A model generated the notes under the pieces. It saw only the letters and a list, made by a program, of their open reading frames with translations. It had not been told where the DNA came from and ran no database searches. From NCBI GenBank assembly GCA_017506865.1, contig JAFCMP010000212.1, forward strand, positions 248,001 through 312,000: DNA of 64,000 nucleotides, in the 5' to 3' direction. Source of the DNA: Tribonema minus. Lineage: Eukaryota > Sar > Xanthophyceae > Tribonematales > Tribonemataceae. Positions 2,393 through 37,900 of this stretch are shown in pieces (the first letter of the stretch is position 1; every line of letters begins with the position of its first letter). The translations under genes were made by a program, and so were the position numbers.

Positions 2393-2741
2393 TACTGTAG
2401 CAGCCAAGCGCCTGTTTTCTGCTGCCACTTCAGCTGCTGCAGCGGCAGCAACGCTCGTCATGATGCGACGCTTTGCTGCTGGGCTGCAGCTGCCCACAAC
2501 AACGCAGCGCCCAGTGCAGGCACGCGTACTACTGTAGCAGCCAAGCACCACCTGTTTGCCGCTGCCACTACAGCTGCAGCGACGGCAGTGCTCATCACAC
2601 ACCCCAGCACCGCTGGAGGCCCTGCCGCGGACATGCACGGTTCATGAAACACGACGTTCGTACGTAATACGGGAGGAGGGGCAGAGAAATCATGTACACA
2701 AACTTCAACTGTAGATGAACCTGTAGATGAAGACCCCAGAG
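2393..2741. repeat. Degenerate tandem repeat beyond the bZIP stop codon
   Basis: About 137-bp repeats beginning tactgtagcagccaagc occur at 2390-2466 and 2526-2603. Both are rich in CTGCTGCCACT and resemble the serine/glycine-rich end of the neighbouring bZIP last exon. This stretch would be the 3' UTR or downstream flank of that gene. No separate gene was seen. Confidence 0.5.
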
Positions 2742-5700
2742 CTACGTTTCTTCGCTGCCACTGTTGGAGTCTGCGACGCTGCGCGCGTAGCCTCCGCCGC
2801 CGCCGCCGCCGCTGCTGCTGTCGTCGTTGCCGAGCAGCATCTGGCTGCTGGCGCCGCGCGCCACAGTGGTCTCGCTCGTGATGCCCTCTTCCGGTTGCTC
2901 GTGAACCTGCACGGGCAGGAGACAGTTCACTTGGTGCTGTGAACTCATTGACATACTGTGCACTCATTCACGTACAGCGTTTGAAGGCGTTGCATGGGTG
3001 CATGTACAGTAGTTGGAGTACAACGCGAGTGCTGCAACATTGCTGGAGGGAGGGGGCAGTACTGGTGGAGGTGTCTCGACACATGCAAGGCATACACAAG
3101 ATGTTGGCAAGTGGACAGCAAATGGGTAAGTGAAAGTCCATGGCAGGTTGCGCATATCCAGTCGTGCGTACACAACGGTAGTGTCAACGGTGCAGCGGAG
3201 GGCCATTTGTCCCGGTGATATTTTGAAGTACAATGGCAGACCTTTCGAGCTAAAGTGAAAAATAAAAGACCAGGTGTTGCCGACGTTTGTCGCAGTACGC
3301 TCATACCACACTTCAACTTCTTGTATACACCCACACTTTGAACTCCTATTCATTCAAACAGCATACGAGCCATGCTCCTCCTATGTTTTTGAAGTCGCGC
3401 AGTCATGTATGGCACTAGCAGGAGCTGAAACAGCAAGAGCGCAGCTGCGAATGGATGTGCATGCACACATGGTGCATACATGTATATACATAATCAGCTG
3501 GAGCTGGTCTACCGAACACGTGAGACCTTTCCATACTGAACACCCAAGCCTCGACTGCTAAAAAGCTTGCACACAGAAGTCTTCTTGACTACTGTGGATA
3601 TGGTGGCACTGTTTGTCTCGTGGCCGATTGCTGCAGCAGCGGCGACCACGGTTATCGGTGATGGGCATTCAACTCGACGGCTAATCACACCTTGTCACCT
3701 AGAGCTTCATTTTCATATACATGGCATCAGCGAAGTGCGCTCATTGACTGGTGCCGTACCACTTGCATCATCATAGCAAAGTGCACCCAGCGCAACAACG
3801 CGGACACCATTGCACAAGAACTGTTTGAGCAGTGCGCTTACCTGAGTCCACAGCTGGTTGAGCATGTGCATGCACGCGGCGTTGCGGCTGACCCACAGTA
3901 TGAACTTGGCGGTCTGTGATCCGCAGCGCAGAAAGGAGGGGGGGCAGGGGGGAGCGTGAACAAATGAGCAACCCAAGTGTTTGTCAACAACTGTTGAATA
4001 ATGTTTGTTGAACGAACGTGTATGCGCACGACATTGTTATTATTGTCGCGCAGGTTGGCACCTTCAATCGTGCAATGACGGATGCATTTCAACATGCAAA
4101 AGAACGAGCGAACTCTGGTCCGCTTTCAGGAGCGGAGAGTCGCAAAGTTGAAATGAGGTGCGGGGGACGGAGTTAGGTTAGGGGTAGGCATGGTGCACAG
4201 CTTAGGGTTAGGTTAGGGTTAAGGCTGGTGCATAGCGCTCATTGCACAACCAACACTGTGGGTCTGTTTTTGCAGTGCCTTTGTACTGTGCAGCAACTCG
4301 TGAAGGTGATTGAGCATGCAGACAATGACATGAACAATGGACGTTTCACAGGTGTGTACGCATGTAGGGCAATGACAAGAACTGGTGTGGGCTTGTACAC
4401 GATCAGGAGCACAGCGCAACATGTTCAAGTGTGAACCCAGAAACACGACACACCTGCATTGGCCAGTGAATGCATTGTGTTGGCACCAAATCGACATCTG
4501 TTGTATACGGTCATTGGTGGAAGGCACTTGCGGCTAACCATCCTTTGTCACCTAGAGCTCTACGATCTTTTGATTCGTTTCCATAATTGTGGCTGCTGAT
4601 ATTGTACTCTGTACCAACATTGCAGTTCATACCCAGGAGCACGACGCACCTGCATAGGCGAGAATATGCGCTGAATCTGCGCCATTTCGTCGTCCAGCGC
4701 CTCGTCTAATATTGAACTCTACACCAAAATTTAGAGTTCAACATTGAGGTTCATGGCAATAATGAACTTATACCAATAATAGATCAAAGACTTCAAGATT
4801 GAAGTTGAAGCTCAGGAACCCAACGCACCTGCGTAGGCGAGAGGATGCGCTGAATCTGCGCCACTTCATCGTCCACAGACTCGTCTGAAATTAAACTCTA
4901 TACATTAAGTACCAAGTTTCAATATTACATGTTGAAGTGCATACCCAGGAGTGCGACGCACCTGCGTGGGCGAGAGTATGCGCTGAATCTGCGCCATCTC
5001 GTCGTCCAGGGACTCGTTCTTGGTGCAGAGCAGCGAGCGTAGACCTGCCACCAGCTGGAGCGTGTTGTGCAGATCCTCGTCCATCGCCTGCAACAGCGGG
5101 TGTTTACCAGCAGCAAAATAAGTTTAGGTACCGGGTACAGGCACAGGTGACAGGCACAGACGGCGGCAGCAGCGATGAAGAGGCGCATTTACTGTTGCTG
5201 GCCGTGTGACCGCGCATACGATCGCCTGCAGCGGCAGCAGTGTTTATCAGCGGCAAAGTCCTTCTTAGGAACAGGCACAGGTGACAGGCTCAGACGGCGG
5301 CAGTGGCAGCAGCAGTATAAGAGGTGCACTTGTTTTTGTTGAGTTTGTCCACGCATACAGCGGCGTGCTGCAGCAGCAGCAGCAGCAGCAGAGTTCTTCT
5401 TAGGCACAGGTGCAGGTGACAGGCTCAGAGGGCGCCCGCGGCAGCAGCAGTAAAAAGGCGCACTTTGCTGCTGACAGTGTCGACGCATACAACCGCCTGT
5501 GTGTCGACGCATACAATCGCCTGCAGTGGCGGCCATGTGCAGCAACAGCAGGATTTTCTTAGGAGAAGGCACAGGTGACTGGCTCAGCCAGCGGCAGCGG
5601 CAGCAGCAGTATAAGAGGTGCACTTCTTGAGTGTGTCCACGCATTCGATTGCCTGCAGTGGCGGCGGTGTGCAGCAGTAGCAGCAGCATTTTCTTGGTCA

Positions 5701-8700
5701 CGGGCAGAGGTCACAGGCCCAGACGCCGGCACCGGCAGTAAAAAGGCGCACTTTGCTGCTGAGCGTGTCTTCGCATATGCGATGCGATACGGCAACCGCA
5801 AAAGAAAGGAATACACCCGTTGAGTTTTTGGGTCAGTGATTGAAGTCTACTCATCATGTCCAAGATAAGAGCCCTCAAGTTTGTAGGCGGTGCTCTGCAG
5901 TTGAGGCGCACCTGACCTGATGCTGGACGGCAGCTTCTCTCAGTTAAACGACCCACCTTGGCGGTGCTCAGCAGCGGGGAGGCGCACCGGGGCGCTGGCC
6001 ACGTTGCTGGTCAGCAGTGCACTGCACTTCACACGTGACTTAAGCTGTGTATGGCCGCCTTGATCAATGCGATGCTCAGCCAACAACGGCGCACAGCCGT
6101 GATCCGCACGGGGGCGAAGGGGGGGGCGCACCTGGGCAATGGACACCTTGCTGGCCCGCGGCCCCTCTCAGCTATTAACAGACTGAGCAATGACACCATC
6201 AGACAGTGCTCATCTCAGGGGGGGCGCACCTGAGCAATGGCCACCTTGTGGCCAGCAATGCTCTCCACGTACCACGCCACCGAAGCTATAGGAGCATTGT
6301 GTGGAAACAAATGCAGGTCAGCCGCCAACTGCGCACACTGCAGCAGTGCTCAGCTGAGGGCGTTACCTGAGCAATGGCCACCTTGCTGGCCAGCAGCTCC
6401 CCTTCGTTAGCAACACAACTGCGCAATGACAGCTTTTTCTGAAACCTTAAGACAGCGTTCAGCAACGGGGGGGCGCACCTGAGCGACGGCCACCTTGCTG
6501 GCAGCAGCTCCTGTCACTAATAAGATGAATAATTCAATACACTAAGCAATAACTGTAGAAGTGGTTGGAACGGGGCGGGCGCACCTGTGCGATGGCCACC
6601 TTGCTGGCCACCGGCTCCTCTCAGATACTTCAAGACAGATTGAGCAATGACACCATTTTTGAACCAGACTGAGCAATGACACAACTGAATAGTACTGCAC
6701 AGGGGGGCGCACCTGAGCGATGGCCACCTTGCTGGCCAGCAGCTCCTCCTGCTGCGGCGTGATCTGCAGAACGCGCACCAGCGTGTTCCACAGCGTGTCC
6801 TGCTTCAGTTTTGCGCCCATGCCCGCGGCTGCCATGAGTGCGCTTGACGAAGCGGGGTCTTGCTGCAGACGCGGCGGGAACAGGCCGCGATCGTCGTCCT
6901 GCAGTCGAGCAGTGAATGAATGAATGGTGATGAATGATTCAATGGCGATGAATGGGTGGATGGCAATACATGAATGAATGGCAATGAATGGCTGCAGGCG
7001 CGGCGGGAACAGGCCGCGGTCATCATCCTGCACGTAAAAAAAAAAGACAATAAATACAAAATCAAATTAAAAAGAGTGAATGGCGTTTAGTGGACAGTGT
7101 GACAGGACACTGTTGCTGTGATCTGCAGTGATCACTGCGCAGCTGGTATGTGCAGTGATCATGCGCAGCGCGGCGGCGACAGGCCGCGGTCGCCGTCCTG
7201 GAAACGATCGAAGAAACGAAAGGTGTGCAAGAACCTGAATGAATGAATGGCGATGAATGAATGAATGGATGGCAATTGAGTGAATGATTGGCAATGAAAT
7301 GGGTGCAGGCGCGGTGGGAACAGGCCGCGGTCGTCGTCCTGCACGGAAGAAAACAAACAGAAAACACAACAATAAATCAAATAAGAAGAATGAATGGCGT
7401 GTAGAGGGGACACCGTCAAGTGAAGCTGTTGCTGCAATGTACAGTGATCACTGCGGAACAGGCGGCGGTCGTCGTTCTAGAAACAAATGAAAAAGCGCAT
7501 GGTGTGTGCAAGAACATGAGACGCCGCGGTCGTTTCCCTTGCGCGACACTGCCACCATGCAGCCTGGTCGAGTTTTGAAGCTGTAGACCCACTCATCAGA
7601 CCCTGATCCTGACCATGATATTATAACGGTTACTGGTGGAAGGCACTTGCGGCTAACCATCCCTTATTTGTTTTCGTATGAGCTATGACAAATGACGCAG
7701 GAGGAGAGAGCACGCACCTTAGTGAGGAGAGCGTGCATGCACGTTTGCGTAAAGAGGAGCCCTGCTAACGTAGAAGCACATGATGCTGAGCACTGGTGCC
7801 CTGAGCACACCGACACAATGCTGAGCACTGAGACATTAAAGCACATCTGCAGAGCACTGATGCCCTCAGCAATGACACCAAAAAGTGAGAACTGACCACA
7901 TAGTCTTTATTGAGGAGAGAGCGCACGCACCTTAGTGAGTAGTGCGTGCATGCACGTCCGCGTGGTGGTGGTGGGCATCAGAAGCCGCTGCGAGAAACGA
8001 GCGCCGGGCACAACACACAAGGAGGCAGAAAATACAACAAGTCAGAGACCGCAGCGGTGGACTTCATCTTTGAACTTTGTGCTCTGCGCGGAAGCCGCTG
8101 CGAGGAACGGGCACCGGGTACAGCAGACACGGAAGGGAATAGCTCGTCAGTGCATCAGGCGAGGACGGAAATCAGCAGGGAACCTATGGCTGTGAGGAAC
8201 GAGCGCCAGGCAAAGCAGACATGGAAGTGTATAAAGCATGTCAGGGAGTCCAACTGGTACAGTGCATCTTGAAATCAATCGCGTGTTCTGTACTTACTGT
8301 TCTGGGCATCGGGCAGCAGGCATCAGACACAGATGTCAGCAACTTCAACCCCAAAATTTTCATCTGGAAGGATGCACTCGCAGTGTGCCACGGTGCGCAT
8401 TGCTGCTAAAACATACTGCAAGATTGACCTAACCCTAACCCTAAACCTTACCGTAACTCTAAGGAATCGTTGGCCATGGCGCAGGCGTGAACTTCCGCCA
8501 GCTGAAGCAAGAATTAGGGTCCAGAGCCTGCTGTGCCCTGATCCCCTTCGCTGTCTGCCCCAATGCCCTAAGCTCCAATAAAGAGACAGAGACGCTCGTA
8601 TGGCATGCTTACCCATGCCTACACTGCTACAGTACCATGTACCCTATCCACTGCTTTCTCCAACAACCCATCACGATGGAAAGTGGCAGCGCGATTCGGC

Positions 8701-11700
8701 ACCGCATGCTGATCACAATTACCAAACCTTGTACACAAGTGCACCTACATAGATACCCCGGCCCCTGCTGAACCTGGCTGGAACATGGCAGCGCTGATGA
8801 ATGTCATGGCAGCGCTGATGAATGTGGCAGCGCAATTCAGCTGCGTGCTGAGCACCACCCATAACTTCAACCGCAATGCATATATGCATGGATGCCCCAG
8901 CTCTTCAGTCACCTGCAACTCGCGGACGCTGGTATGTGGCAGCGCTGATTTTGTAACGCGTAGCCCACAAACTTTGTATACATACATGTATACGTACATA
9001 CCCCCTCCTCCCAACTTCACCTGCAACTCGTTGAGATGGACTACCTAGCCCACAGGTGTCATCTACATACATACGTACATATCCCCGCCCACGAACTTCG
9101 CCTGCAACTCGTCGAGATGGAATATGGCAGTGCTCGTTCTGTCCCGCCCGTGGTCCGCAAACTTCATCTACATACATATTTACATACAAACATGCATACA
9201 TACCCCCCGCCTACAAACTTCACCTGCAACTCGTCGAGATGAAATATGGCAGCGCTCGTCCTGTCCCGCCCGTAGTCCGCAAACTTGGTCTTGAGCACGT
9301 CCATCGCGGCCAGAATGTCCCCCTCCCCCGCCCCCTTGCTGACCATCTCCTGCAGCCGCTGCTTGAGGCCCGCTATTTCGTCGTCTGCTCGCGAGAGGGA
9401 GCAGGGGGGGTGGGGGGGTGACATGAGGGACGGGCGCTGCCAAATATGCACTCTGATCAGTCAAACACAGGTTATTCGCAGGGTAAGGATAGCTTGGTTA
9501 CTATCTGTCGTAGCTAGAATCAACTTGCAGCGTGCCCCCTATCGTCGTCCGCTCGAGTGAGGGAGCAAGGGGGGCTGGGGGGGGGGGGGTGAGCACTGCC
9601 AACTGTGCTATGTTCATCATGCGCAGGCGATTCGGATTGGAAAAATAGCTAGTTCATCATCTCCTGCAGCTGGTCTTGCGCCCGGCACTGTAGCGTGCCA
9701 GAGGGGGGGCTGACGACCGTTCACAAGGATGATAAATAGTCATGCCACGCACCATTCTCGTCTTTCAGACAGATGTATCGAAACATATGCAGAAGGGTGC
9801 CTTCCCTGCCCCTTGAGGCATGTGCAGAAGGGTGAAGTTCCTCCCTCCCGCCTTACAGACATGCACGCACACGCGCGCGCGCGCTCCAACCAAGGGGGCA
9901 AGCGGCGCACACTTAATGATACCTTCTCATTCGTGCGTGCATACCTACGTACCTTCCTCGCTCCCGCGCCACGGGCAGAGCCGTCACATGCACGAACAGA
10001 ATGCAAGAAAGCACGCGCAGCACACCCAACCCCAACCCTTACCCTTACCCCTGAACCTGACCCTGAACCTAGTGTTATTTCTGGCGATCAGTCGGGGCGT
10101 GGCAGTAGCCAAGCAGCTTCCCGAGCACGGCAAAGCATGCATACATACATACATTGCATGCATGCATACATACATACCTTCTCGCTCTCGCGCCTCATCC
10201 CCGATTTTGAGCTTCAGCCGCAGCTCCAGGTTGTCCGCCTCCAGGCCCGCCAATTGCCGCTGTGCGCACCCACGCCAACAACATCAGCAGTCAGCAGATG
10301 CCATAGGGTATGCATGCATGCATGCTCACAACATCAGCGCTCATCAGATGGCTAGGGCATGTATGCATGCTAGCAACATCAGTGCTCATCAGATGTCGTA
10401 GTGCGCAACCGCTGGCATCAGCGCTCATCATGTTTTGGGCAGAGGTACGTCCAGGTGTGCATCAGACACTCAGAATTGCAAAAGCAGAGTGCGCACGTAT
10501 GCGTTGGTGATCATGCGGTACCCCAGGCGGCCCGCCAGAAGAGCAGGCGGGACGAATGAATGCGTCATATTCCATGGTTTGTCTGATGTTCTGCTCTTCC
10601 AAAGGTCTGCTGTAAGGTTGTGCACATCTGGTCATACACGTCATACTACTTGCCAATGAAAGCGAAGCGATTAGTGACAGAGTACATCTGCTACAACCAA
10701 TGGGTCTGTGATCATGTTCAGGAGAAAAGTATGTGTACATGAGATCTTTCCATACTGAACACCCATGCCTCGAACGCTAAAAAGCTTGCACACAGAAGTC
10801 TTGAGACTACTGTGGATATGATGGCACTGTTCGACTCGTGACCAAATGACTGCAACAGCGGCGACCACGGTTATTGGTGGAAGGCACTTGCGGCTAACCA
10901 GTCCTTGTCACCCAGAGCTCTACGGCCTTTTGATTCGTTTCCATACATACCTGCAGCGCCTGCACGTGCTCCTTTTTCCTCCTGCGGCACTCCCGCGCGC
11001 TCATCCTGCACAGCACAGGTCAATCAGTCAATTGGCGAGAGCACGCGCTCAGCCACATGTGAGCGAGCAGCAGAAATCGGATGCTGCGTGGTGGTAATGT
11101 GCTGCTGCAAGCCTGCAAGCTGCACACGGCGCCGGCCATAAGATGGATGACGCTTTTGACGTACTCGCCAATGCACAAATCAATCAGCGAAATCATGCGG
11201 CCAGCCAAATGTGAGTGAGCAGCAGACATCGATTGCTGCGTGGTGACATAGTGCTGCTGCAGGCCTGCAAGCTGGACGTGATGTCGGGCCATGAGATGAA
11301 TGACGCATGAGTTTTGGCCCGGTTTAGCCTTTTTCCTCACAAACATCAGTGAGTTAGTCCATGCCTCATCCATCCCAGCCAAATGCAACTGGCGGAGCAT
11401 TACATATAGAGGGATGTAAAAACGTATACCTGATTGCGTGAGTGCAGCATCGGCCGCAAGGAATGCGCTGGTGTCACAAGTGCATGCACAGGCAGCAAGA
11501 AGCACAGATATCGGTGCCTGCATTCTGTGCCATACCGTCACTGATTGACACCTTGGGACAGATCACCGTCATGGAACCATCCTTGTCAGTCACGCAAAAC
11601 ACGACGTGATAGATGAATGTCGACGTTGCGGGCAGCAGTACGCTGAGTGAGACAGCATTCACAGCTCCATTACCCACCTATTCTTCTCCAGTCGCCGAAG

Positions 11701-11820
11701 CCGCTTCTCGCTCAGCGCCTGATCTGCGTTAGAATGTGCAGGCCGCTTTTGCCCAGCGTACGCCACAGCTCCCGCTGCGGCTGCGGCAGCAGCACTGGCT
11801 GCATCTGCGTATTCGTCCAT
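2742..11820 (-). CDS. bZIP transcription factor, nine exons, complete
   Basis: Exons on the minus strand, with phases that all close: 11678-11820, 10951-11005, 10178-10259, 9224-9384, 7931-7987, 6713-6898, 4962-5087, 3842-3913, 2742-2906. All introns are GT-AG. The product is 348 aa. It starts at the ATG at 11820-11818 with an Ala-rich N-terminus. The basic region (about residues 40-63) reads EKNRMSARECRRKKKEHVQ and has the N-x7-R spacing of CREB-like bZIPs. A leucine zipper follows (about 64-110). Downstream is an extended module (about 125-294) with DYGRDRTSAAIFHLDELQ, RLLMPT, SLDDEMAQIQRILSPTQ and TAKFILWVSRNAACM, which I recognise from stramenopile bZIPs. The tail is Ser/Gly-rich. It should bind DNA as a dimer in the nucleus. 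Several introns carry exon-edge ladders (listed separately). Function within the cell is unknown. Confidence 0.9.
3518..3725 (+). repeat. Dispersed short repeat DR1, copy 1
   Basis: About 205 bp starting near gagacctttccatactgaac and ending near ttttcatatacatg. Related copies are at 4508-4590, 7619-7690, 10735-10948 and 45113-45245, all in the same orientation. Copies differ in how much of the left end they keep. It looks like a short interspersed element. No protein frame was seen. Confidence 0.7.
4640..4905 (-). repeat. Donor-side copies of bZIP exon 7 end
   Basis: Two degenerate copies (about 4648-4712 and 4826-4890) repeat the 3' end of exon 7 and its GTGCG donor. They include the antisense pattern cacctgcgtaggcgagaggatg and the SLDDEMAQIQ-coding segment. 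They lie downstream of the exon in the direction of transcription. Spacing to each other and to the real junction at 4962 is about 135-180 bp. Confidence 0.8.
5100..5830 (-). repeat. Acceptor-side tandem array upstream of bZIP exon 7
   Basis: About six imperfect copies of a roughly 115-130 bp unit fill the intron before exon 7. Each contains the antisense of the exon start and acceptor (catcgcctgcag-like), then cggcagcagcag, tataagaggtgcact and gtccacgcatac. The real acceptor is at 5088. The unit ends resemble the first bases of the exon (GCGATGGACG) in degraded form. Confidence 0.75.
5880..6640 (-). repeat. Donor-side ladder of bZIP exon 6
   Basis: Six to seven copies (near 5900, 5985, 6130, 6225, 6365, 6470, 6580) repeat the last bases of exon 6 plus the donor. 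In plus orientation they read gcgcacctgagcaatggcc followed by accttgctggcc. In the coding sense this is LLASKVAIAQ followed by GTGCGC. The functional donor is taken to be the most upstream one at 6712. Several copies keep an intact GT and the preceding CAG. Confidence 0.85.
6990..7485 (-). repeat. Acceptor-side ladder of bZIP exon 6
   Basis: Four copies (about 6993-7033, 7167-7201, 7307-7345, 7455-7482) repeat the exon start QDDDRGLFPPRL with its acceptor. In plus orientation they read gcggcgggaacaggccgcgg then tcgtcgtcctgcac. The functional acceptor is the one adjoining the exon at 6898. The copies are separated by ATG/AATGAATGG-rich simple sequence. Confidence 0.85.
7700..8215 (-). repeat. 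Edge copies of bZIP exon 5
   Basis: A donor-side copy (7713-7750) repeats the antisense of MHALLTK plus the GTGCGTGC donor seen at 7931. Acceptor-side copies (about 8089-8120 and 8187-8215) repeat gaagccgctgcgaggaacg, the antisense of the acceptor and exon start at 7987. Exon 5 is only 57 bp, so both of its edges are duplicated around it. Confidence 0.75.
8430..8456. repeat. Interstitial telomere-like repeat
   Basis: Short CCCTAA-type run inside bZIP intron 4: cctaaccctaaccctaaacc. Similar runs lie at 4175-4222, 14371-14399, 34423-34455 and 34804-34830. Confidence 0.8.
8895..9150 (-). repeat. Donor-side ladder of bZIP exon 4
   Basis: Three copies (about 8905-8975, 9010-9050, 9085-9175) repeat the antisense of HLDELQ and its donor: cttcacctgcaactcgtcg then agatggaatatggcagcgct. 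One copy extends through the GRDRTSA-coding part. The real junction is at 9223/9224. Between copies lie tacatac simple repeats. Confidence 0.85.
9535..9700 (-). repeat. Acceptor-side copies of bZIP exon 4
   Basis: A copy at about 9541-9590 repeats cgtcgtccgctcgagtgagg and the following G-rich run. It mirrors the exon start and polypyrimidine/acceptor region at 9380-9420. A weaker copy near 9657-9690 repeats catctcctgcagctg from within the exon. Confidence 0.65.
10735..10948 (+). repeat. Dispersed short repeat DR1, copy 2 (near full)
   Basis: Aligns by eye with copy 1 over nearly its whole length: ctttccatactgaacaccc, then aaaagcttgcacacagaag, then gcgaccacggttattggtgg, ending ttttgattcgtttccata. 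It lies within bZIP intron 2, directly next to exon 2. Confidence 0.75.
11010..11330 (-). repeat. Acceptor-side tandem repeat before bZIP exon 2
   Basis: Two units of about 165 bp (11010-11175 and 11176-11330). Each carries caatcagtcaattggcgag-like, agcagcagaaatcggatgc and gctgctgcaagcctgcaagc segments. They repeat the intron sequence directly upstream of exon 2 in the sense of transcription. Confidence 0.7.
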
Positions 11821-12423
11821 GCCTCACTCCCGCAATCCACCGACTGCTTTACGCGCCGATGAACAAGGTTGAACCAGATGTACGGGACACCGGTGATTGC
11901 AGTTCGGTGTCAATATGCTGGCGGACCAAAATACGGAGTCCAAATGCCGTGAGAAGCCAACAATTGGTACCAGCCGCCCCGCAGGAAGGCACCGCACTCA
12001 CCCGGATTATGTTCAAGTCTGCAGTGGAAAGTCGCTTTGATCCGACGCACACCACGTAGGCGCAGTGGCTGTGGCTAATCGCTGCCGCAACAGTACGCTT
12101 TTGTCTCGTCGGACCGTCTTGCTATGTCTCTGCGGCAGTACAGGACTCTCACTCACTCTCCGCGAAGTCTCAACTTCACCTTGCTACCTAAAAGTTGAAG
12201 TTCAGCGGCTTTCGGAGGAGAAGAGCAGACTGCTGAGGGACGGCGCAGCGTTCGGGAGCCGAAGACACATTTGACGGTGAAAGTCTGCTGTGGAACCGGA
12301 GAGGGAGGTGTCCAGTCGCCTTCGTGTAGCTCCCGTCTGAGCGAAAACCGGGAGAGTCGTTTGCACAGCAAGCTGGTATCTTGCCTTGAATCCTGAAGGC
12401 TTGGCGCAAAGGCGAGCGTGATC
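11821..12423. promoter_or_regulatory. Divergent intergenic region between bZIP and EMC3
   Basis: The bZIP start codon (11820, minus) and the EMC3 start codon (12424, plus) face away from each other across 603 bp. Any core promoters and 5' UTRs of both genes would be here unless upstream non-coding exons exist. I see no clear TATA box. The role is inferred from position only. Confidence 0.45.
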
Positions 12424-21530: not shown

Positions 21531-21536
21531 ACGTAG

Positions 21537-23897: not shown

Positions 23898-24010
23898 GTG
23901 GGTGTCGTTGCGACACTTTCAGACTGTCATACGACATGTAGATTCCTTACAGCTAGATGCCAATCATCTGGGCTTTTTCGCGCCCTGAGCGAGAATTAAT
24001 AAAAAGTACT
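21537..24010 (+). mobile_element. Non-LTR retrotransposon family B, 5'-truncated
   Basis: The open frame 21537-23897 encodes the C-terminal part of a retroelement protein. There is no RT palm, so the copy is 5'-truncated. The 3' UTR runs to gagaattaataaaaagtac (about 24010). Family members recognised by this tail are at 36470-37310 (minus) and 57640-57830 (plus). It lies between EMC3 and the Zn2Cys6-like gene. Confidence 0.82.
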
Positions 24011-25404: not shown

Positions 25405-25686
25405 ATGGCATTGCTGCCTGAATCATACGACAGTCACTGTCAATCTCCTTGTAGCAATCAGTTTGTCAAGCAAATTTTAAAGTCGTTCTGCAAGAAGGTC
25501 GATAGTTTGTGTGAAGACAACACAGTGTCGCTTAAAGTTCGCTTCATAATAAAAAAAGTGCCCTCAGACTGGAATCTGCATCATATGAAGCCTGGTGTTG
25601 ATATTTGCATAGGGTGCGGAACCCGCAAAGGTCACGCCGTCGGAATGTTATTCTGGAAACCACGCACGATCATCATGATGTCCCTG
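25405..25686 (+). CDS. Unassigned short ORF, possible upstream exon
   Basis: An ATG-started frame of 94 codons precedes the Zn2Cys6-like exon by about 250 bp. It contains CIGCGTRK followed by a possible donor (AAAG then GTCACG). C-x2-C at this point would supply the first two cysteines of a Zn2Cys6 cluster. However, the splice phase (1) does not match the next exon (2), so the join fails by one base as I read it. It could be a separate gene, a decayed exon, or chance. Confidence 0.3.
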
Positions 25687-25933
25687 TAACCGGTGGTCGA
25701 CCTTCAAGCTGCATTTGCGCTTCAAGAAGTTCTGAAACTGCAGTTACAGCTCGATCACGTGAGACCGTCCTCGCACTGCAACTGGAGCGGCACCAAGCAC
25801 GACCTGCAGACTGAGTTCTGCAACTATCACTTCTGACGCATGAATTTAGAGTCAGCATCATCATCAGCGTCATGATCATCATGATGTCATTATGATCAAA
25901 ACATCCATGCAACTTCAACCCTCCCCCCTGCAG

Positions 25934-28900
25934 GAAGCGGCGATGCACTGGCACAAACCACTGCGACCTCTGCGCCACCAGGGGGAAGGTGTGCAAGTAC
26001 AGCATGTGCGGCAAGCGCGGCCCCAAGCCCAAATCCACGGACACGACGGCGACAACCGCCGCTGCCGCCGCCGCTGCCAACGACGCAGTCGCCAACGACG
26101 GCAGCAGCAGCAGCGGCAGCCGCAGCGCGCCCGCCAAAAACGCGACGGCGCTGGTGCGCAAGCGGCGGCGGCGGCAGCAGCCTGAGCGCCCAGCAGGTGC
26201 TGCCGCCGCCGCCGCCGCTACAGCTGCTGTGGCGGCGGCGGCGGCAGCGCTCACGCTGCCCGACCACCCGCGGCTGCACACGGGCCAGGTGCTTCAAGTT
26301 GGCCTGCAGGAGCTGCGCTACCTGCAGAACTACCTGCTCGCGTTCTCCGCCACGGGCGTCGCACTGGAGGCCGACGTGCAGCGCGCCGCCATGCACCCCA
26401 TGACGCACGGCAACGGCGACGCTGACGGCGTCGGAAGCGCTGGCGGCGGCAGCAGCGGCGCGCTGTCAAGAACGGCAGCAGCAGCGGCGGCCGCGCGCAG
26501 GGGGGCGGGGGGGGCGCGGGCCAACTTGTAGGCCCGAGGCAGCGGCCACGCTGCGTCAGCCATCACGTGGGCCGCAAATAAGAGCATGATGTGGCTGGCG
26601 GTGGCGTCGGGCGCGGCGATGAGCGCGCCGGTGCGGCAGGAGGAGGTGGCGGCGTACATGGCGTGCGCGTACGCGGCGCTGGACGGGTGCGGCGAGGAGC
26701 CCGTGCTGCCGCTGCTGCGCGCATACGTCATGATGGCAATCACGCACGCCATGCTGGAGGACTACGCCGGGTGAGGTTTGAGCGCTGCACCCACAGTGAC
26801 TGCTGCTGAGCACTGCGGCTCTTGGCGCTGCTGCAGTGCACGCTTACATTGTGACGTCACGTTTGAGCGCTGCCGCAGCGTCCATCGCTGCGGAGCACTC
26901 AGGCTGCTGCTGTAACAGTTGATCATGATGCTGCTACATCATCAAGCCGGTGTCGCACGCCAACTTGGAGTATTATGCCGGGTGAGTTGAGCGCTGCGAC
27001 CTCACTTGGTGCTGCCGAGCGCTGTCGCGACGCTGCCGCAACGGCTGCTCAACTTGAGGTTCAAGTTGTAGCGCTTTCTGATGCACCACCTCTTGCTTGC
27101 GAGCAGCCATCACTGACAGGCATTCACTGATTCAAAAATTAGTGATCGTAATGATGATAGGGCGCCTGGAGGTGGCCAACTTCAAGTTGAGACTAATAGT
27201 ACTACATACTATATAGAACCTCAAGTTGCATCTGATGCGAACACCGTCTTGTATTTCACCAGGCTGAGCCTTGTCGGCACCTGGTCCACACACTAGACGT
27301 GAAATTGCTGAGTGCATTCTGAATGTGAAAATACACAAGTACCATGCTGTGGCACAAACTTGAACTGCAACAGCTACTATAGTATTGGTGCATCAATAAA
27401 TATGGCATTCAATTTGCCGTTGGCCACACTGCCAGACTGAGTGGCCATCATGATGCATACAAATCTTGCCATTGCTCCAGCCTGCCTGAGCTCGTAATGA
27501 CGGGCTGCCATTGCCATGTAACCTTAGTAAGGCTTAAGCTTTAAGTTAATGATTATCATAACCTGCTAGTAGCCGTACCCTAATTTATAAGCAGCTCAAT
27601 GACCCGTATACCTGCCAGTGCTACTAGTAAGAGAACTATGTGTCATGAGCAGTAACAACCGCACTCAATAATTGCAACCCCTTTGATTCTGAGTTTTACT
27701 ATTAGTAAGTACTACCGTACTGACAGTAGTACTTCGGAATCCCCAGGCTGCAGCTGATGATCAGGCCGCATTGCGATACTATCATCTGTAAGTTGCCGAG
27801 TCCTAGCGGCCCGGGGTGCAGTCACTGAGGTGGGTTCAATTTGCACTTGACAGTAACTGTTGCTCCAAGTTGCATGTCAGAACTTCAGCGTTGAATGCAT
27901 GCGTGCCATCTCAGAGTCTATGCCACAGGCTGTTGGCCTACTACTACTAGTAGTACCTATAGTATACTATCACCGCGCAATGATTCTGCACTGAGGGCCA
28001 TGGCAGCTTCAAGTTGAACTTAAAGTTATCGCTGCACGTTCATCCAGAGTCCCTGGTCCTCACCACACCACTTCAAAGTTTGCGTACATTGCCTGACATT
28101 GTGACAATGCATGCGTGCCTGTCGCCGCTGCCCCTGTGCTGCAGGCTGTTTGCCTACTACCACCGCGCCATGAACGTGGCACGCGCCATACTGCACGCGC
28201 GCACGGCTGAGGGCCACGTCAGCAGCGCCGACGCAGGCACAGGCGTCTCAAGCGGCGACTCGGTTGTCGCCGACATCGATCATGACGCAGTTGTGGTTTT
28301 GGAGGTGCGTCACTGACAACTGCAAGTACTTCCAGTTGCAGCGCTAAAGGCCGTGTCAGCTCCGCGGGGGCCGGGCCTCAAAGGATGCCATCAGTCACTG
28401 TGATTGTGCTCAGCATTAATGATGACATGTGAGTGCTGGAGGTGCTGGTTCACAATGTCATCTGCCAGTCTTATTTCAGCTTGCATTGTTGCTGACATCT
28501 TCAAGTCTTACTTCAACTTGCATTGTTGCTCTCCTTCACACACACAGGTCCTACGCGTCAGCAGATTATTTGCCATGGCGTATGTCGAAAGCGATCGTTT
28601 TGCCGAGCGGTTCGTGCGGCACCGTCTCCTCACCACCTTCCAGCGGTAGGTGCCTCTAAATCTGTTGCAGGTGCTTACCAGTGATAAAGTAATATGCAAA
28701 GCTGAATATACATGGAAACTTGAAGTTACCATTCGTTCGCCACCGTCTCCTCACCACCTTCCAGCGGTAGGTGCCCTCTCACCCTGTTTTATACCTTTGC
28801 AATGTGCCATCTGAACATACCTGCTATCATAATGTAAGAAAGTGTCTGATTCAAGTTGGCGCAGATGAAATCATTGATACATCAACAACTTGAAGGTGGG

Positions 28901-31900
28901 GATAGGGTCAGGGTTAAAGGTACCGTAACGGTACCTTCATGCTGTGCGCTCTGTCATCATGGCTCTTGCATGATAGCATCGCAAAATGGCATGATCACCG
29001 TGATGTCAAGCGTTTATGTGTCACACGGTGTGTGTGGGGGGGGGGTACACTCAAACAAACAATACGAGCGGATACACTACAATAAGCCACCAGTGGTGTG
29101 CCAGTACTGCCAGTGCGTTCCACTTTGAGCCATTTCTATTGCATTCAGAAGGGTGAAACTAGCATGGTGCGGTTTGCACACGTTGTAGGGTGTACGTATG
29201 GACTTGTATTTATAAAGGCCCAAGGGAGGCCGGGTTGCCTATGCAATCGAAAAGCTTGCGTCAACGCAGCAGCCTAGTCTGCGCTGTGCCCTAGGAGTTT
29301 GGATACCGGCGCCGCAACACAGCCCAGCATTCGCGCTCCACGTGTGTATGCCATGACGCGCTCCGCCAACTCCCGCGCCAGCGATATGCTCAGCTCAATG
29401 TGGATCTGACGCTTAGCTAACCCGGCCTTGCGTAACACATCTGCCTTCCCCCCCCCTGAGCACAGTGCTGAGTGCATTGCCAACTCCTTAACAAAAAGGC
29501 TTGTCTGCTTGCCCAGCCGTCCGTACGACTCCTGCATGAATGGCACAAAAGCCCAAGATGACGTCAAGGTGCCGGTGTGGTGCTTGACCTTCGCGTCCTC
29601 CCCCACCCCAGCAGCATAGCCGTCCGTGTTCGAGGCATTTGTTTTGCCTGTCAGGTACGAGCTCGCTGTGGGTGCGCGCACACTTGTGTCTAGCACTATT
29701 CCCTTGTTACGGTATGCACTGCTAAAGTGCAGACACCCTGGGTCAATGACTGTGTCCGCCCGATACCCCGGTACCTTGAAGACGCTAGCGTCCTCATTGC
29801 GGACAATAGAGACATGGTGCTGTCTCAAGATGCGCTGTAGGCACCGCTTTTGGGCAGTGTGTGTCGCGTTGTGCCCCCGTATGTGCTGGCTGGGGCAGCT
29901 GATCGCATGCGTGGAGGTGGGGCTCACGTCACTGCACCGCCATGGGCACACCTCGCCCTGTATGCCCCACCCGTCTATAAAGATCGCAACCATAATCATC
30001 GTGGCTGCTGCCATACTGGACATGGGCGCCGCACCCGGGCGGTCATTGGCAGCGGGTGGCACGCTCATCCACGCCATTGCCCCGGACGCACGCTGGCTGC
30101 GCAGCTGCGCCAGGACCCGCGCGCTAGCCTGTTGGCGGCGGCGGCTGGTGTCACGCAAGTCACCAATAAGTGTAGCCTGCGTCGGCTTGCCCACGGCACC
30201 AGCCGAGGCAGCCTCTAGGTCCTCCACCAGGCAGTCCTCGTATTGACGTCGAAGAACATTTGAAAGGCCGGCTTGTAGTCCGTGCGTGAAGTGACCGCGC
30301 CGGCGGCGGGGCACTACCTTTCTGCAGATCTCGTCAGCATAGGCCTCCCAGTCGTCGTCGTCGTCCTCCTGCCCGCCGCTGCAGCTGCTTTCTTCCGCGC
30401 TAGTTTGTGTTTTAGCGGGCGTGGAAGAGGCAGCCGCGGCAGCGGCTTGAGGGCCAGGTACGGTCGCCGCCGCAGCGGCCGCCTCGGCGCCAGGCACAAT
30501 GCCGTGGGTGTGTGGGGCTGGCTCAGTGGTCCCCGTCTCCGTGACGGCAGTTGCGGCGTAGATCGCTTGCACCGCAGTGGGGAGCGTCGACGCTGCGGCC
30601 GTTGTATCCGCTGCCCACCGTAGCAACGATGCTGGGAGCTGCTCGGCCACAGCTGTGCGTGATTTTTCGCCGCCATCAGCTGTCAGCGCTCGCGTAGAGC
30701 GTCGCACGGCCTCGATGATTGGCGGCAGTCCCTGGTCCTCGCGTATTGCGCATGAGTGCTGCGCGAACCAGGTGACTGCGCCGTGTTCGTCAGTGCCGAG
30801 CCTCAGGGCCCCTGCTGCCACAGTGGCATGAATTATTGCAGGCCGCAGTGTTGTGCATGCCTGGGCCGTGTATGCGGCTGGTGCCAGTAGCCCCAAAAGC
30901 GGCATGCCCAGACCGCCTCGTCGCTCCGGCAACCGTGACGCCCGCAGTGGCACTGCGATGTCCGTGAGTTCTGGCGGGCCCAAGCGCGGCAATACCAGCA
31001 CGCTGCCACTGCTGGCTACCTCATTGTCACCAGCAGTGCAGGCGGCCAGCAGGTGTGACTTCATGACTGCCGCGGTAGCGCAGCCGTGCAGGTGCAGCAT
31101 GCGTTCAAGCGTCCATGCACAGAACCCGTCAAATGCGTGCAGCCATGTCTCACTCAAAGCCGTGTCAACGACCCGAGCTAAGAAGCCCATGCGCTTCGTC
31201 AGTGACCTGCGCAGAATGAACTGTGCTGCCTGTAGGTGATGCCGCGCCATCCCAGCTAGCTGCCACGACAATCGCCATGTCCCTGCGTCAACAAGATGCT
31301 TGCTCATGGCAGCATGCACATAGGCTGGGTGCCCTACCGGTACCCCGACCGACGTAAAGCCCTGACTGGATTCTGGCATGGTGGCGTCCACAAACGGTAT
31401 GTCAAGGGCGCGCAGGCGTGCTCTGGCCGCTTCATCAAACACTGTGCCGCGCATGGCAATGGCCAGCGACTTGTCTGGTCGAACGCGTAGGCCCCCTGCC
31501 GCAAGCCGACGGATCACCTCTGCCACCCCAGCGGCCGCTGCATCGTCGAAGTAGGCAGCTTGCAGCACGTTGAGGTCATCCAGGAAAGCGCAGTGCGGGG
31601 CTGGCGGTTCCGCTGTGCTGTGGCCGTAGGCCGGCATACTGCCGGGCGTCGCACTCACTCCATCAGGGTGTACTCTGTGGCATGCATTGGTGCTGATCAT
31701 GAGCATTCACAACTTATGTGCTACTTCAGAAGAACCCGTGCAATCTCCTTAGCGTAGAGTATCAACATCAATGCATTTGGGTGCCACAGTGTCTCTTGCA
31801 TGTCTAGCTGTGCCTAACACTCTGTAGTTGTGACACTACAAGGAAAAAGTAATACGTTGTGCAACGAGGTGTACTGCGTCGCAAAATGGCATTTTGAGTG

Positions 31901-34900
31901 AAATTCTTGACATTCAATGCCAACCAGCATCGCATTCCTTTGCGGTTGCTCAAGCACGTTGTTGTAACAACATCGCACTGCACGGGCCCGAGTATCCATG
32001 TGCCACATGCCCATATATACATATATAAGCCACATGCCAGTGGTGTTGGCCTAGCGTCACAGTCTCTCACGACTCACATAACGCGCCCCTCCCCCAGGAT
32101 TGCTCCAAACCCCGATGAATTCCAACACATAGGCCAGGGAACACCTGGCATGCTGTTCATCACTTTCAGCCCCAGCATAGAGGGCCTGCCCGATCTGCCC
32201 GCACAAGCGGCAGTGGAGGAGCAGCGACCAGGGTCTGCATCAGGGACTGCCAAGGTGAAGTTTGTGGTAACTTCAAGTTGAACTCTGGCAAATGTTGACT
32301 GGCACATATTAAGCTGCACTCGAGCAAGCGACTAGGTTCTGCGTCACGGAATGCCATGGTGACGTTTTGTGGTTACCTCGAGTTGAATTTGGGCAAATGT
32401 TGATGTGGCACGCGCTGATGTCAAGCTGCACATGAGAGAGGAGTCCGGATGATGGTTCATGGTACATCTTGTTGAAGTAGGTATCACTGCGCGCGACGCT
32501 GCCGTGTCAATCATGGTGCGCATGCGCACGGGCATCGCAGCCGTCACATTGTGACTGGCACATATCTCTCGTGCCGCTGTTACATTGTGTTACATTACCA
32601 GGGCATGGTCGGCGCTTACACACTTCACCGCGGCCTTGCTCTGCTGTGCCAAAGTTCAACTTTGAAGTAGAGCTTTGCGCCTGTGTATAGTTCATGCGGC
32701 CACCACACACAGTATTGATTCAATTTGACCTTGCCTTCATTGTGCGCATGCGCTGAATGAGCCCAACGCGCTTGACAAACTTTAACCTAGCAGCTCGCAC
32801 TTGCTCATGCAAGTATATAAATGTATTCATGTGTTAAATCACTTCCAAAGTTCTTGTTGAGTACAAGAAATGCAACGTTTTTTAACAAATGAATGTAATG
32901 TTTTTTAACAAATGAATGTAATAGTATCTACGTATAAGTGCCGTGTCCAGAGCACCACCCACTGTCACGCATTCACACCAGATAACAACCTTGCCACACT
33001 GTTGCACTTCACACACTCGCCAACGCGCCTCACAAAGTGTGGCGGCGACAACCCCCTCAACAGTGAAATGTCACTGCTCGCTGCCACATGCGCCCAATGT
33101 CGCGCAGCCAGCCTCTGTATCGCGCGCGCTGCGTGAGCTGGGACTGGCGGACACGTCGCGAACGGAGAGCCTCGTTCACGCCTCGACACAGGAGGGCACG
33201 CGCGCGCTCCCTATGGTGTTCAGCCTCGACCATCGCGTCATGCAGGTGACGGAGAGCATGTACAGTATTGCTACATGCGACGCTTCTCAAGAATGAGAGC
33301 GCAGCGCCCATTGCTGAGAGGTTCTGGTGGCTACACCATGGCAGAGACAAATCTGACAACATCTTGTCTTTGGACCGCGACCCTGACAGTTTCAGCAGTT
33401 TTCTGAAGTAGTTGCCTGCGCCCAACTGGAACTTGAAGTTCTTGTTGGGCAGCCTTAAGCATCCGATTCGCCTTGACTCACTCTCCAACTAAGTGTGTAA
33501 AGAAGTCATAATTTCTTATGAAGGAAAACGGAACATCTTAGCAGCAAGTTGAAGAGTTCACTGCCACCCTGCAGCGCCTGCAGATCCAGTGTGACAACAG
33601 CATGACGCTGTCCTTTGCGTACCTACCGTATGGTATCGTGCAGGAGCTCAACCCCAAGCCCTAACCCTACGTGATGTCATGCACAGCGAAAATGCACCAC
33701 ATGCCATTGCTGGGCTACCTTATCATGGCCCGCCAACCTGGGGTGCACTGCGCTGTATGCCGTTTCGCATACGCTCGAACAACTGCCTTCGCTTGTAGAA
33801 TGTAAAGCACTTGCATACCCTTGACCTAGCAAAGAGGCACCGGCAACACCCATGTGCTCTATGTAGTGTTCCCCCTGTCTTCCACATCTAAATTTGTCTC
33901 ACACTGCCACTGTCACTTTTGCCACCGCCGCCACCCTCCCAGGTGATGCACATTGTGAACACCACGCCATTCCTGGGCAGCCTGGCAGCAGCACGCGAAG
34001 CCGGGGCGCGCGTGCAGCGTATCGTCGCGCGTCTCGCAGCAGGCCTTGGCGGTGATTTCATGACACGACCCAGCTTCATGCAGCTGGCCCTGGGCTACAT
34101 GATCCTCTTCCTGAGGCTGCTGTGCTGCGATGAGGTGTGTGGCAGCGATCAGCACAGGCCCTAGTTAGCTCCAACCCCTTAACCCTACGTTATAGTGGTC
34201 CTTGATGATCTGGAAAAGCAGGCCTGGCCCTAGGCTGCTGGGGTTTTGGAACCCTATGATAATTGTACAACTGGAGGATGTGAAATTGAGCACGCTTTAA
34301 CGGTCGTTTTGCAGCTGCACTATAGGAATGTGCGCGACAATTCTCCACAAGGTAGAGCACACACTCTATACATGTCAATATAAATGCGTGTCCACGTCTG
34401 CGCTTTGCAGCGTGTACAGCGACTTAACCCTAACCCTAACCCGAACCCTAACCCTATGATGTAAGAGCGGGTACGTCCCGCCAGCCCCACCGCCCTTAGT
34501 ATACTGTGACCAGTCTTATATCGTTACTGGGCTTAACCAGGGTTAGGGCAAACCTAGGCTAATCCTATCCCTACCATCAGGGTTTATGGTAAACAAGTAG
34601 AGTTGGAGCACCTAGGAGTTGAAGTGGGTTTCAATGAAGCCGAAACAACCGCACAGCAGCTGTGGCTGCGGTGCCGAGCGCATGTTGTTGTTATGAGGGG
34701 GTTGCTTCTGAAGGTAATGGCACACATCTCCGCCGGTGTGCATCGACCGTGAAGCGGCTGGTGGTAGGTGGGCACGATATAGGGAAGAGCGGCCAGCCCT
34801 TGGGTTGGGGTTAGGGTTAGGGTTAGGCACCAAACCGCTCTTATATCGACCTGATCCGAGTTCAGCCATCAGACCGCTCTCATACAGTGCTCTTAATGTA

Positions 34901-37900
34901 GCTGCTGTTACAGTGGTTGAAGTTAAGCTGCTTTTACAGTTGCCGTATTCCGCAGCGCCTCAAGAGAACCTGCTGCGCCCTTGCAGCGGTTTGTTGCACT
35001 TCAGCAAGTGTGTGGCGTTGTTGACCCTACCTATACCTGCATACCCACACTGGGTGTACGCTGAAGCTGTGCTGCTTTGAATTTTGACCTAGAAAGTGTT
35101 CCCGCCACCAGTCATTCATGGTGTTCAGGCTCGTTGCGGCCTGACTTTTGAGTGCCAGCTGTGCAGTTTGGCACCCTAACCCTAACCCTAAGCGGTAGCC
35201 TTATCTCTGGTGCTGACGCAACAACCCAGTGCTGAAATCAACATCAGGCTGTCGATTGGTATTATGCTTCGCCGCAACGCGCCACATTATCGCGGTGCAG
35301 CCGAGCTCTGCTGACATCATCCACCTGCGCTCAACCCACCGGGTGCTTGCCAAATGCGATGCGCCAACCCACTGCAGGAGGGCGCAATGGAGATGCTCCT
35401 GCACCTGGTCCGCACCTTCTGCAACACTCCCGGGATGCTGCGAGTGCTATCGTGGCGCCACAATGTGAGTTCCCTCCTACTGTAGCCCCCCATTATGACT
35501 TGCTTATTTCGCCGTTGCCTTGTCATGTGGTGTTTACACCTGTGCACAGGCGTCAGAATCATTTGTTGAAATGGTGTCGTCATCAGTAGCTGGCACGGCG
35601 CACATGGTGGCCAGGCTGAGCAGTGCTGGAGCGTGCATACATACCCATGCCATTTTACGTCAACATCAGTTCTAATTCAAGTGTAACATCTTGACTTCAC
35701 CAGCGCCGCAACCAGCCTGTGGCCTTGCTCACTCTTCTGTACATGTGTGTGCCGAATCAGATTCGTTGGGCGACAGCTATGCTGGCCAGCGTTGAGAGGC
35801 ATCAGGATTGTATATCGTTGCACTTCTGCATTACTTCATCTTGAAGTATAGGCACTGGCTTCCATGCAGCCTGCTACCCTTGCCCACTCACTTGTATGCG
35901 TGTCTATACATGTAGGGCTACTGGGCTGCTACGATACTGGCCAACGGCTACCCGCACGTGTAGAGTACCTTGACCTTCCGCTCAAGTTCAACTTGAAGTA
36001 CAAGCATTGCCATCTCAAGCAACCCCTGCCCGCTCCTGTGTACACGCACGTGTGGTTTCAGGTCCACTGGGTGGCGGCGATGCTGGCCAGTGCCGACAGG
36101 CACAGTGAGTATGCCGCGCTGGCGCGCACCTACAACGGCATGCGCCTCGCAGGCGGTCGCGACGTTCTGCCAGAGGACGCGCACAGCAAGGCACAGCTGT
36201 GCTGCTGCAGGTGCCCGCAAATATGTATCACCATGCTGTGCTGTTTGTGTGATTTGACACGCACCTGTGCTGGCGCAGGCGCCTAGTGTGTGTTTTGCCC
36301 TGCTGTTCTGTGCTGTGTGATATGACGCCCGTAGACCATCAACACAGCAAGGCGCACCTGTGCTGCTGCAGGCGCCTGCAGCAGTGCTTCGCCGTGCTGT
36401 GCTCTCTGTGTGATTTGACACCAGAAGGTGTGAACCCGTGCACTCTTGAGTGCCAATGAACAGTCCATGTACTTTTTATTAATTCTCGCTCAGGGCGCGA
36501 AAAAGCCCAGATGATTGGCATCTAGCTGTAAGGAATCTACATGTCGTATGACAGTCTGAAAGTGTCGCAACGACAACCACTCAAACGCCGCCGCCGCCAA
36601 ATGGCATCTCGGGGTCCTCCCCTACGTCCTCCTCCATGTGCCCCCCCCCCCTGGATTCTGCCATATGTGTCGTGACACGGCCAGAGTACGCCATGTGGAG
36701 CGCTGCCGACAGTGCCGAGCGTAAGCGCGCCAGGGCGATGCCCTTGAGAGCTTTAGGGCGCGCTCCTCCGGGCACTGACATCCTGCTGGCATACTCCGTC
36801 GCCACAGCCTCCAGCAGCTTCCGCCCCTGCTCCCCGATGCTGCCATATGACCCTATTGCCAAAGTGGCAAGTTTGTAGCAATTCTGATCATAATGACCAG
36901 AATAGTGGGTAGTCTTGGCGGCCTCTTGGTCGCGGCAGCATCGCTCGGGGTCTGCTGCAGTCTTCGCCGCCCGCGACGCCACCTGTGCCTCGAAGCAGGC
37001 AACGTCCACCATGAGCGGTAGGTGGCGTGTCGAATCGTCGTAGTCCATGTACTTTTTAACAGTCCATGTACTTTTATTAATTCTTGCTTAGGGCGCGAAA
37101 AAGTCCAGATGAATGGTATCTAAGCTTGCTGTACGGAATCTACATGTACTTTTTATTAATTCTCGCTCAGGGCGCGAAAAAGCCCAGATGATTGGCATCT
37201 AGCTGTAAGGAATCTACATGTCGTATGACAGTCTGAAAATGTCGCAACGACAACCACTCAAACGCCGCCGCCGCCAAATGGCATCTCGGGGTCCTCCCCT
37301 CCGTCTACATGTACTTGATGGTCCCTATATACTTTCATGGGTCAGAACTTGAAGTATGCATACCGTATTGTCTACAAGAAAGCACCCCCCTCCTGAAGGA
37401 ATGGGGAGCGAGCGACCCGGAAACAGACAGCTTCTTTCGTAATGGTGCTTGAAGCAAGTTAGAGACCATCGCTCAACATTTGCTTTATTTTTTTTGTTAT
37501 ATGAAACATGTGCATCACCTCATGTTTTCTGTTGCATTGAGATCATGTTGTGCGCATGCTGCGGGATTACATCTACATTGGCATTTAGCCGTGCTGCCAC
37601 GCTTAGCACATCAACACCACCACGCCAGAAGGGTTTCTGGCCCTAACCCTAAGTAGGGCCAGACCTAACCCTCCCGCCTCAGGAAGTGAAGTTGTATATT
37701 ATGTCCTGGACCGCATGGGCTGCGCGCACGATAAATCGGGCTTGCAATAACTAAATCTACGGAGGAGCCGGCGGTTCGGCGCTGGCCGGCGAGGGCCGCG
37801 GCACTTGCAACAGTGCGATGCGGCGGTAAGCGCTGACGTCGCCATCAGGGGCAATGACTGCGTTCCAGTTGTCGATCACGACACGTGTGAGCGCGCGCTG

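Follow-up and report, generated by a model that had tools for sequence, protein, structure and literature searches.

How do introns gain length from sources other than transposons? To our knowledge, such sources of new intron sequence are poorly known. The question is raised here by a window of 64,000 nucleotides, positions 248001-312000 of contig JAFCMP010000212.1 (hereafter C212), from the 158-Mb genome, in 554 contigs, of Tribonema minus. This alga, a xanthophyte, belongs to the PX clade within the stramenopiles and is kin to the brown algae. In three genes of the window, a bZIP gene on the minus strand, and EMC3 and a Zn2Cys6-like gene on the plus strand, an earlier note based on the sequence alone had described introns filled with degenerate copies of the adjoining splice junctions: the start of an exon and its 3' splice site copied upstream, the end and its 5' splice site copied downstream. 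We report that these ladders of exon-edge copies are real, and that they probably result from short tandem duplications crossing splice junctions, which lengthen the introns and whose stranded intron-side copies decay.

Exon-edge copies in the bZIP and EMC3 genes

The two better defined gene models are the following (here and below, coordinates are those of the window).

2742-11820, minus strand: bZIP gene; exons 11678-11820, 10951-11005, 10178-10259, 9224-9384, 7931-7987, 6713-6898, 4962-5087, 3842-3913, 2742-2906
12424-20412, plus strand: EMC3 gene; exons 12424-12578, 14869-14968, 15971-16099, 17083-17343, 20197-20412

The translated five-exon EMC3 model and P0001, an annotated T. minus protein of 286 amino acids, share 100% identity along all 286 residues. 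The nine-exon bZIP model was guided by P0038, a transcript-derived protein from a close relative, 97% identical to the partial bZIP query; P0039, the GenBank model of the bZIP region on another contig, C242, was also returned by the bZIP protein search. All bZIP donors are GT, and AG acceptors were imposed by the script. The bZIP introns are 672 to 1625 bp long and those of EMC3 983 to 2853 bp, and exon numbering in both models agrees with that of the earlier note. The donor of EMC3 exon 2 (14969-14970) is GC, not GT, and this GC is retained in three ladder copies.

Each exon edge (at most 70 bp, or half of the exon) was aligned by the Smith-Waterman method to both adjoining introns, with cut-offs set from shuffled introns (p<0.01 per search), and the tally for bZIP and EMC3 was made by hand. 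On the expected side, 15 of 24 edge searches gave a total of 45 copy alignments, while none was found in the 24 wrong-side searches. Because two pairs of alignments adjoin each other (15113-15148/15149-15173 and 18618-18640/18641-18667), the number of distinct copies is perhaps 43. EMC3 exons 2, 3 and 4 have copies on both sides and exon 5 on its acceptor side; in bZIP, copies accompany exons 4 to 7, with one marginal match each at exons 3 and 8. No edge-copy alignment was obtained at bZIP exons 1, 2 and 9, nor at the EMC3 exon 1 donor. The exons singled out beforehand in these two genes thus do bear degenerate copies of their edges, in excess over shuffled controls, at the following positions.

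8913-9164, minus strand: bZIP exon 4 donor-side copies (9102-9164, 9021-9038, 8913-8977)
9658-9686, minus strand: weak acceptor-side copy of bZIP exon 4 (score 27)
7718-7750, minus strand: bZIP exon 5 donor-side copy
6991-7475, minus strand: bZIP exon 6 acceptor-side copies (7455-7475, 7304-7338, 7159-7197, 6991-7027)
5992-6620, minus strand: bZIP exon 6 donor-side copies (6585-6620, 6479-6512, 6367-6400, 6230-6257, 6132-6167, 5992-6017)
5137-5777, minus strand: repeats with units of about 132 bp, upstream of bZIP exon 7; apparent acceptor-region copies with few exon bases, relation to exon 7 judged by eye
4650-4884, minus strand: bZIP exon 7 donor-side copies (4829-4884, 4650-4705)
14414-14763, plus strand: EMC3 exon 2, acceptor side: copies at 14422-14450, 14548-14565 and 14665-14693 in repeats with a unit of 122 bp
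15015-15807, plus strand: EMC3 exon 2, donor side: seven copy alignments, the first at 15015-15041 and the last at 15779-15807, with two that adjoin each other
15853-15907, plus strand: EMC3 exon 3 acceptor-side copy
16124-16300, plus strand: EMC3 exon 3 donor-side copies (16124-16148, 16268-16300)
16776-16966, plus strand: EMC3 exon 4 acceptor-side copies (16776-16824, 16925-16966)
17439-18832, plus strand: EMC3 exon 4, donor side: array of 163-bp units with ten copy alignments, among which two adjoin each other
20012-20038, plus strand: EMC3 exon 5 acceptor-side copy

Of the 35 copies that reach the exon edge, 25 are donor copies, 23 of them with GT or GC, and 10 are acceptor copies, 9 of them with AG, so that decoy splice sites are indeed left behind, as the earlier note had it. 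Nine of the 12 introns of the two genes bear ladders, spanning at a fixed cut-off 20 to 96% of the intron (96% for EMC3 intron 2, 77% for bZIP intron 5, 59% for EMC3 intron 4; one of the nine rests on a single weak copy), and the span is zero in bZIP introns 1, 2 and 8. Regular tandem arrays of similar units, such as define a minisatellite, are found in EMC3, with a period of 163 at exon 4 and of 122 at exon 2, the remaining ladders being irregular and degenerate. The bZIP exon 6 ladder contains a paired repeat, 6931-7139 / 7236-7455, of 80% identity, seen via C242; nested patterns of this kind indicate that blocks of copies were themselves re-duplicated.

Beyond the stretch that it shares with the window, C242 holds bZIP exons 4 and 5 once more at 24318-28607, in a partial second copy with 98 and 100% protein identity to P0038. 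Exon 4 has donor-side copies of its own there, and some 4 kb separate the two exons, against 1.2 kb in the window.

Duplication of the flanks and decay of the copies

We then asked how much intron sequence was duplicated together with the exon edge. Spacers between copies were similar (z>4) in 86 of 160 within-ladder pairs, against 0 of 148 between-gene control pairs. Flanks are thus co-duplicated in most ladders, and the duplications cross or adjoin the exon border in tandem, this homology of the flanks not extending to every copy. The period lay between 80 and 239 bp in 39 of 63 well-conserved pairs. Together with the recurrence on other contigs described below, these counts uphold the proposal that tandem duplication has occurred repeatedly across splice junctions.

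In the 16 ladders with at least two copies, 35 indels in the copies shift the frame and 4 leave it intact. Changes assigned to the exon lineage in 16 ladders fall on codon positions one to three as 2, 1 and 19, and 20 of 22 are synonymous. The live exon is therefore constrained, and its copies keep no frame. An excess of third-position differences (5.3, 6.4 and 17.9%) had been taken as constraint on the copies, a reading that was dropped once events were counted by lineage; the indel and codon-position counts likewise led us to reject the idea that the copies are under selection for coding. Conservation sharply centred on the junction was also considered, and was reduced by gapped alignment and spacer tests to a moderate excess.

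Recurrence elsewhere in the genome

A sample of 34 protein kinase loci (41 domain exons) was drawn from 131 Pkinase matches, being chosen for split or partial domains with the sequence unseen. L018 (a 48-bp array), L010 and the remainder of C242 were excluded from the random controls described below, and L017 (satellite) from later analyses. In the first 29 loci, at a score of at least 30 bits, all 13 upstream copies derived from the 5' half of the exon, and 16 of 17 downstream copies from the 3' half. The single exception (29 right, 1 wrong) is a 24-base match in L048, which the 25-base filter used in later counts removes. With all 34 loci and at least 36 bits, copies were found at 18 of 82 domain edges, in 12 loci (locus bootstrap 0.11 to 0.34), and none of at least 25 bp had the wrong polarity. 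The pattern is thus widespread, not universal. A 1.56-kb kinase intron showed no ladder. In the paralogous kinases L028 and L029 (introns of 247 and 340 bp), the sole match was one of 14 bases to the acceptor of L029; it is too short to count.

The third gene of the window has a weaker model, with borders placed by eye, guided by the paralogs P0132 and P0133; the protein search returned no protein from its own contig. Its long first exon has an in-frame stop inside.

25935-36210, plus strand: Zn2Cys6-like gene or pseudogene; tentative exons 25935-26770, 28145-28304, 28548-28645, 32098-32254, 33108-33245, 33943-34134, 35378-35464, 36062-36210
Plus strand: six edge-copy alignments in this gene, starting at 27929, 27965, 28732, 32311, 33676 and 35767

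These six expected-side alignments occur at 5 of 14 edges, and no copy was found in 14 wrong-side searches. Several exons of this gene therefore bear one-sided edge copies, as had been stated, within the limits of the weaker model. Long open frames of 786, 810 and 1399 codons at 21537-23897, 29274-31706 and 37757-41956 look retroelement-like in our reading; that at 29274-31706 sits within an intron of the Zn2Cys6-like gene.

Assembly artefacts, mobile elements and exon duplication

When 17 regions were shuffled once each, no local repeat of at least 30 bits remained, against 107 in the window. Diverse sources of repeated sequence other than local duplication were considered. An error of assembly, or insertion of introners or transposons, might be suspected from the fact that contig C242 terminates within the EMC3 exon 4 array. 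However, the copies are diverged, C242 repeats window 2392-18120 with 1 mismatch and 15 gap openings (99.89% identity), and the 163-bp unit of EMC3 exon 4, the sole unit searched genome-wide, was found only at its own locus and on C242. Artefact and introner were both rejected, and we hold explanations of this kind to be very improbable.

Whole-exon copies with both junctions were absent, with 0 matches in the 38 wrong-side searches of bZIP, EMC3 and the Zn2Cys6-like gene, and a search of bZIP, EMC3 and 29 kinase loci gave no inverted exon copy of at least 30 bits. Whole-exon duplication and inverted or dispersed insertion were rejected on these grounds; given also the lack of wrong-polarity copies of at least 25 bp in the 34 kinase loci, the ladders are not the product of exon duplication, in agreement with the earlier note.

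Polarity and background repeats

The one-sidedness of the copies had been offered as a clue in its own right. Yet random C212 segments of equal lengths showed the right polarity in 94 cases and the wrong one in 20; for flank segments of the kinase loci the figures were 138 and 72. This is because any tandem duplication over a boundary yields such polarity. One-sidedness is thus a true observation but mostly a matter of geometry, and not a separate clue. Exons stand apart only in that wrong-side or internal copies were absent from them, which is to be expected if selection removes those.

In 130 kb of random C212 sequence, local repeats of the ladder kind take up about 6%. In the sampled regions, 28 of 39 repeat blocks had no coding segment scoring at least 12 (our own cut-off) within 350 bp, coding prediction there being too weak for sorting every repeat by junction. 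Copies were present at 14 of 70 exon edges in the first 29 kinase loci, compared with 74 of 1200 edges of random C212 segments and 104 of 1200 of kinase-locus flank segments, a control whose segments include ladder copies. Exon edges are therefore enriched about 3-fold when compared with random segments, and 2-fold when compared with those of the flanks. Given the small sample (29 loci; 34 in the extended count) and unmatched duplication ages, this two- to three-fold excess was seen with limited power and is support, not proof, for a preference for exon edges. Loci bearing ladders were also richer in repeats elsewhere (6.9 vs 1.9%). An excess of junction copies over other sequence is thus supported at the sampled kinase edges, and similar duplications also occur away from recognisable exons.

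Splicing and annotation

Two transcript-derived proteins from relatives, P0038 for bZIP and P0003 for EMC3 (70% identity), contain no ladder sequence, and the copies are skipped in GenBank P0001; none of the three holds new spliced intron or exon sequence. The GenBank models P0002 and P0039, predicted on C242, include ladder pieces (EPNKDTEK before EPSKDTEK; a second IQRILSPTQ). Splicing in T. minus itself presumably skips the copies. Ladders mislead gene prediction, since P0001 and P0002, two models of one locus, conflict at or around the copies.

Origin of the ladders

The mechanism that we propose is as follows. Short local tandem duplications, with units commonly of about 80 to 240 bp, would arise at many sites of the genome. 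Where such a duplication spans a splice junction, the copy that stays attached to the exon body would remain used, because only that copy keeps the reading frame whole, and the other, made of exon edge, splice site and flank, would be left in the intron and decay. Further duplications, including those of blocks already holding copies, would build the ladder and lengthen the intron. The mutational step may be the fill-in of staggered breaks, or slippage.

Several observations weigh against this reading. Changes assigned to the copy lineages are distributed over codon positions as 38, 51 and 70, which is non-uniform (p=0.006); we infer that this excess at third positions reflects changes in the exon between successive duplications. 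Between copies, the exon-derived part is more conserved than the spacer (0.904 vs 0.815; 9 of 10 ladders, p=0.037), as it also is in 11 of 13 ladders when the real exon is compared with its copies, which plain neutral decay does not predict. In fixed windows, 18 real-copy pairs with an exon identity of at least 0.9 had a mean intron identity of 0.67, against about 0.89 under neutral decay. Homology of the flanks is missing from some copies of 85 to 96% exon identity (L032, bZIP exon 5, EMC3 exon 3 acceptor), and strictly contiguous repeat pairs number 15 of 63 well-conserved ones, non-neighbouring rungs being counted. Lastly, 22 of the 34 kinase loci had no ladder at 36 bits. With the three ladder-free introns of bZIP, and ladders spanning from 0 to 96% of an intron, the statement that such duplications are "the way introns lengthen" in this genome is too strong, and the interpretation given in the earlier note is only partly supported.

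Part of the conservation excess of the exon part is built in, because copies were detected through it. Gene conversion from the live exon, rewriting the exon parts of the rungs while spacers drift, would account for the remainder. The ladders with a better conserved exon part point that way, as do adjacent copies of the EMC3 exon 4 array (c2/c3, c5/c6), which differ by 16-20% in their intron part and by 2-3% in their exon part; against this stand the use of the exon part as bait and a reverse trend in the real-copy comparison at the bZIP exon 6 acceptor, at the L033 exon start and between L033 copies. Tandem duplication combined with such conversion is possible, though we would not bet on it. 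A similarly tentative standing goes to a broader proposal, in which splice junctions are duplication hotspots, perhaps via breaks linked to transcription or splicing, and rungs are rewritten by the live exon; if it were true, introns would be self-extending from their own borders, on an exon template kept by purifying selection. At the other extreme, tandem duplication might be uniform and neutral, ladders being conspicuous merely because exons are conserved and duplications within them purged. The repeats in random sequence, the right polarity of control segments and the blocks remote from coding segments all fit this, and the flank control, in lowering the enrichment to two- to three-fold, gives it more weight and the hotspots less. 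However, in simulations of uniform neutral duplication with conserved exons and a 5% background, copies occurred at 3.7% of edges, when 18 of 82 were observed and the two controls stood at 0.062 and 0.087. Furthermore, multi-exon uniform simulations placed 13 to 44% of the intron in repeats not touching exons, as compared to 0.0 in EMC3 (where exon-touching repeat families cover 37% of the introns) and 12% in bZIP, part of which adjoins exon 7, as judged by eye. Uniform duplication is hence a doubtful account of the whole.

Other processes fare less well. Short exon-edge fragments pasted into the intron by template switching or RNA-templated repair would explain why L032, L026 and some bZIP and EMC3 copies match the junction over the exon and a few intron bases only. 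They would leave unexplained the spacer homology, absent between genes, and the whole-unit arrays at EMC3 exons 2 and 4 and at L044, and inverted copies were not found; we think this improbable. The copies could also be kept by selection as working elements, whether alternative exon ends, recursive splice sites or splicing decoys. Retention of the splice dinucleotides, the better conservation of the exon part and the ladder pieces in P0002 and P0039 are all compatible with a function, but frameshifts by far outnumber in-frame indels, copies change at every codon position, and the relatives' P0038 and P0003 are made without them, so that a selected role appears still more improbable. Junction-crossing tandem duplication with decay of the intron-side copies is therefore the reading that we retain.

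Other repeats and contig differences

A dispersed repeat of about 60-90 bp was read by eye in bZIP and EMC3 introns, and telomere-like interstitial CCCTAA/TAACCC tracts lie in or near introns.

About 4510-4580, 7630-7665, 10870-10945 and 15365-15425 (reverse): dispersed repeat, core ggtggaaggcacttgcggctaacc
14372-14399, 34425-34456 and 8427-8462: telomere-like tracts

L042 contains at 272-865 a 264-bp repeat of 96% identity with 66 unrelated bases between its copies, unlike the tandem copies. Near-identity of the window to C242 (from 15724) stops below 2392; the window side there, 1-2392, holds a long open frame (3-2207), and the difference may be an insertion in one contig or a misjoin.

Relation to known systems

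In the potato RdRp gene, a tandem duplication over an intron-exon boundary made a new intron (Ma, Lan and Niu 2016, PMC4974935), and an 83-bp tandem duplication in its first intron is also mentioned. As in Tribonema, the duplication copies the acceptor region and the start of the next exon. The potato case is one event, giving a new intron and extra exon sequence, whereas in Tribonema a gene has undergone many events, upstream as well as downstream of its exons, with copies lying inside existing introns and no intron added in the models used. In the Rogers model, introns are gained by tandem duplication of exon sequence bearing AGGT (PMC4974935; Drosophila cases in PMC2891723). Intron sequence comes there too from a short tandem duplication, but the copied segment in Tribonema spans an existing junction, and a new intron position was not seen. 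Fill-in by CST/Pol alpha-primase at breaks with 3' overhangs produces small tandem duplications in human and mouse cells (PMC8355091), and so offers a route to them without a mobile element; the consulted part of that work concerns mammalian cells and draws no link to splice junctions. Introners, which insert copies into many genes as introns (PMC9860276), likewise put new sequence into genes, but the Tribonema unit that was searched is private to one exon edge.

Judged from titles and the openings of abstracts, no description of gene-wide junction ladders was found among the papers that literature searches listed, and a term search of a comparative Chlamydomonas paper (PMC8226300) gave nothing on such repeats. 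The elementary event, a single tandem duplication crossing a junction, is already published; ladders on most junctions of a gene were not found described.

The ladders are ordered traces of duplication events, whose rungs hold formerly exonic sequence. Because the originals of the rungs are still known, a single genome gives access to the rate of duplication, the decay of the copies and the selection against decoy splice sites. In T. minus, the finding shows a route by which introns can grow from their own borders.

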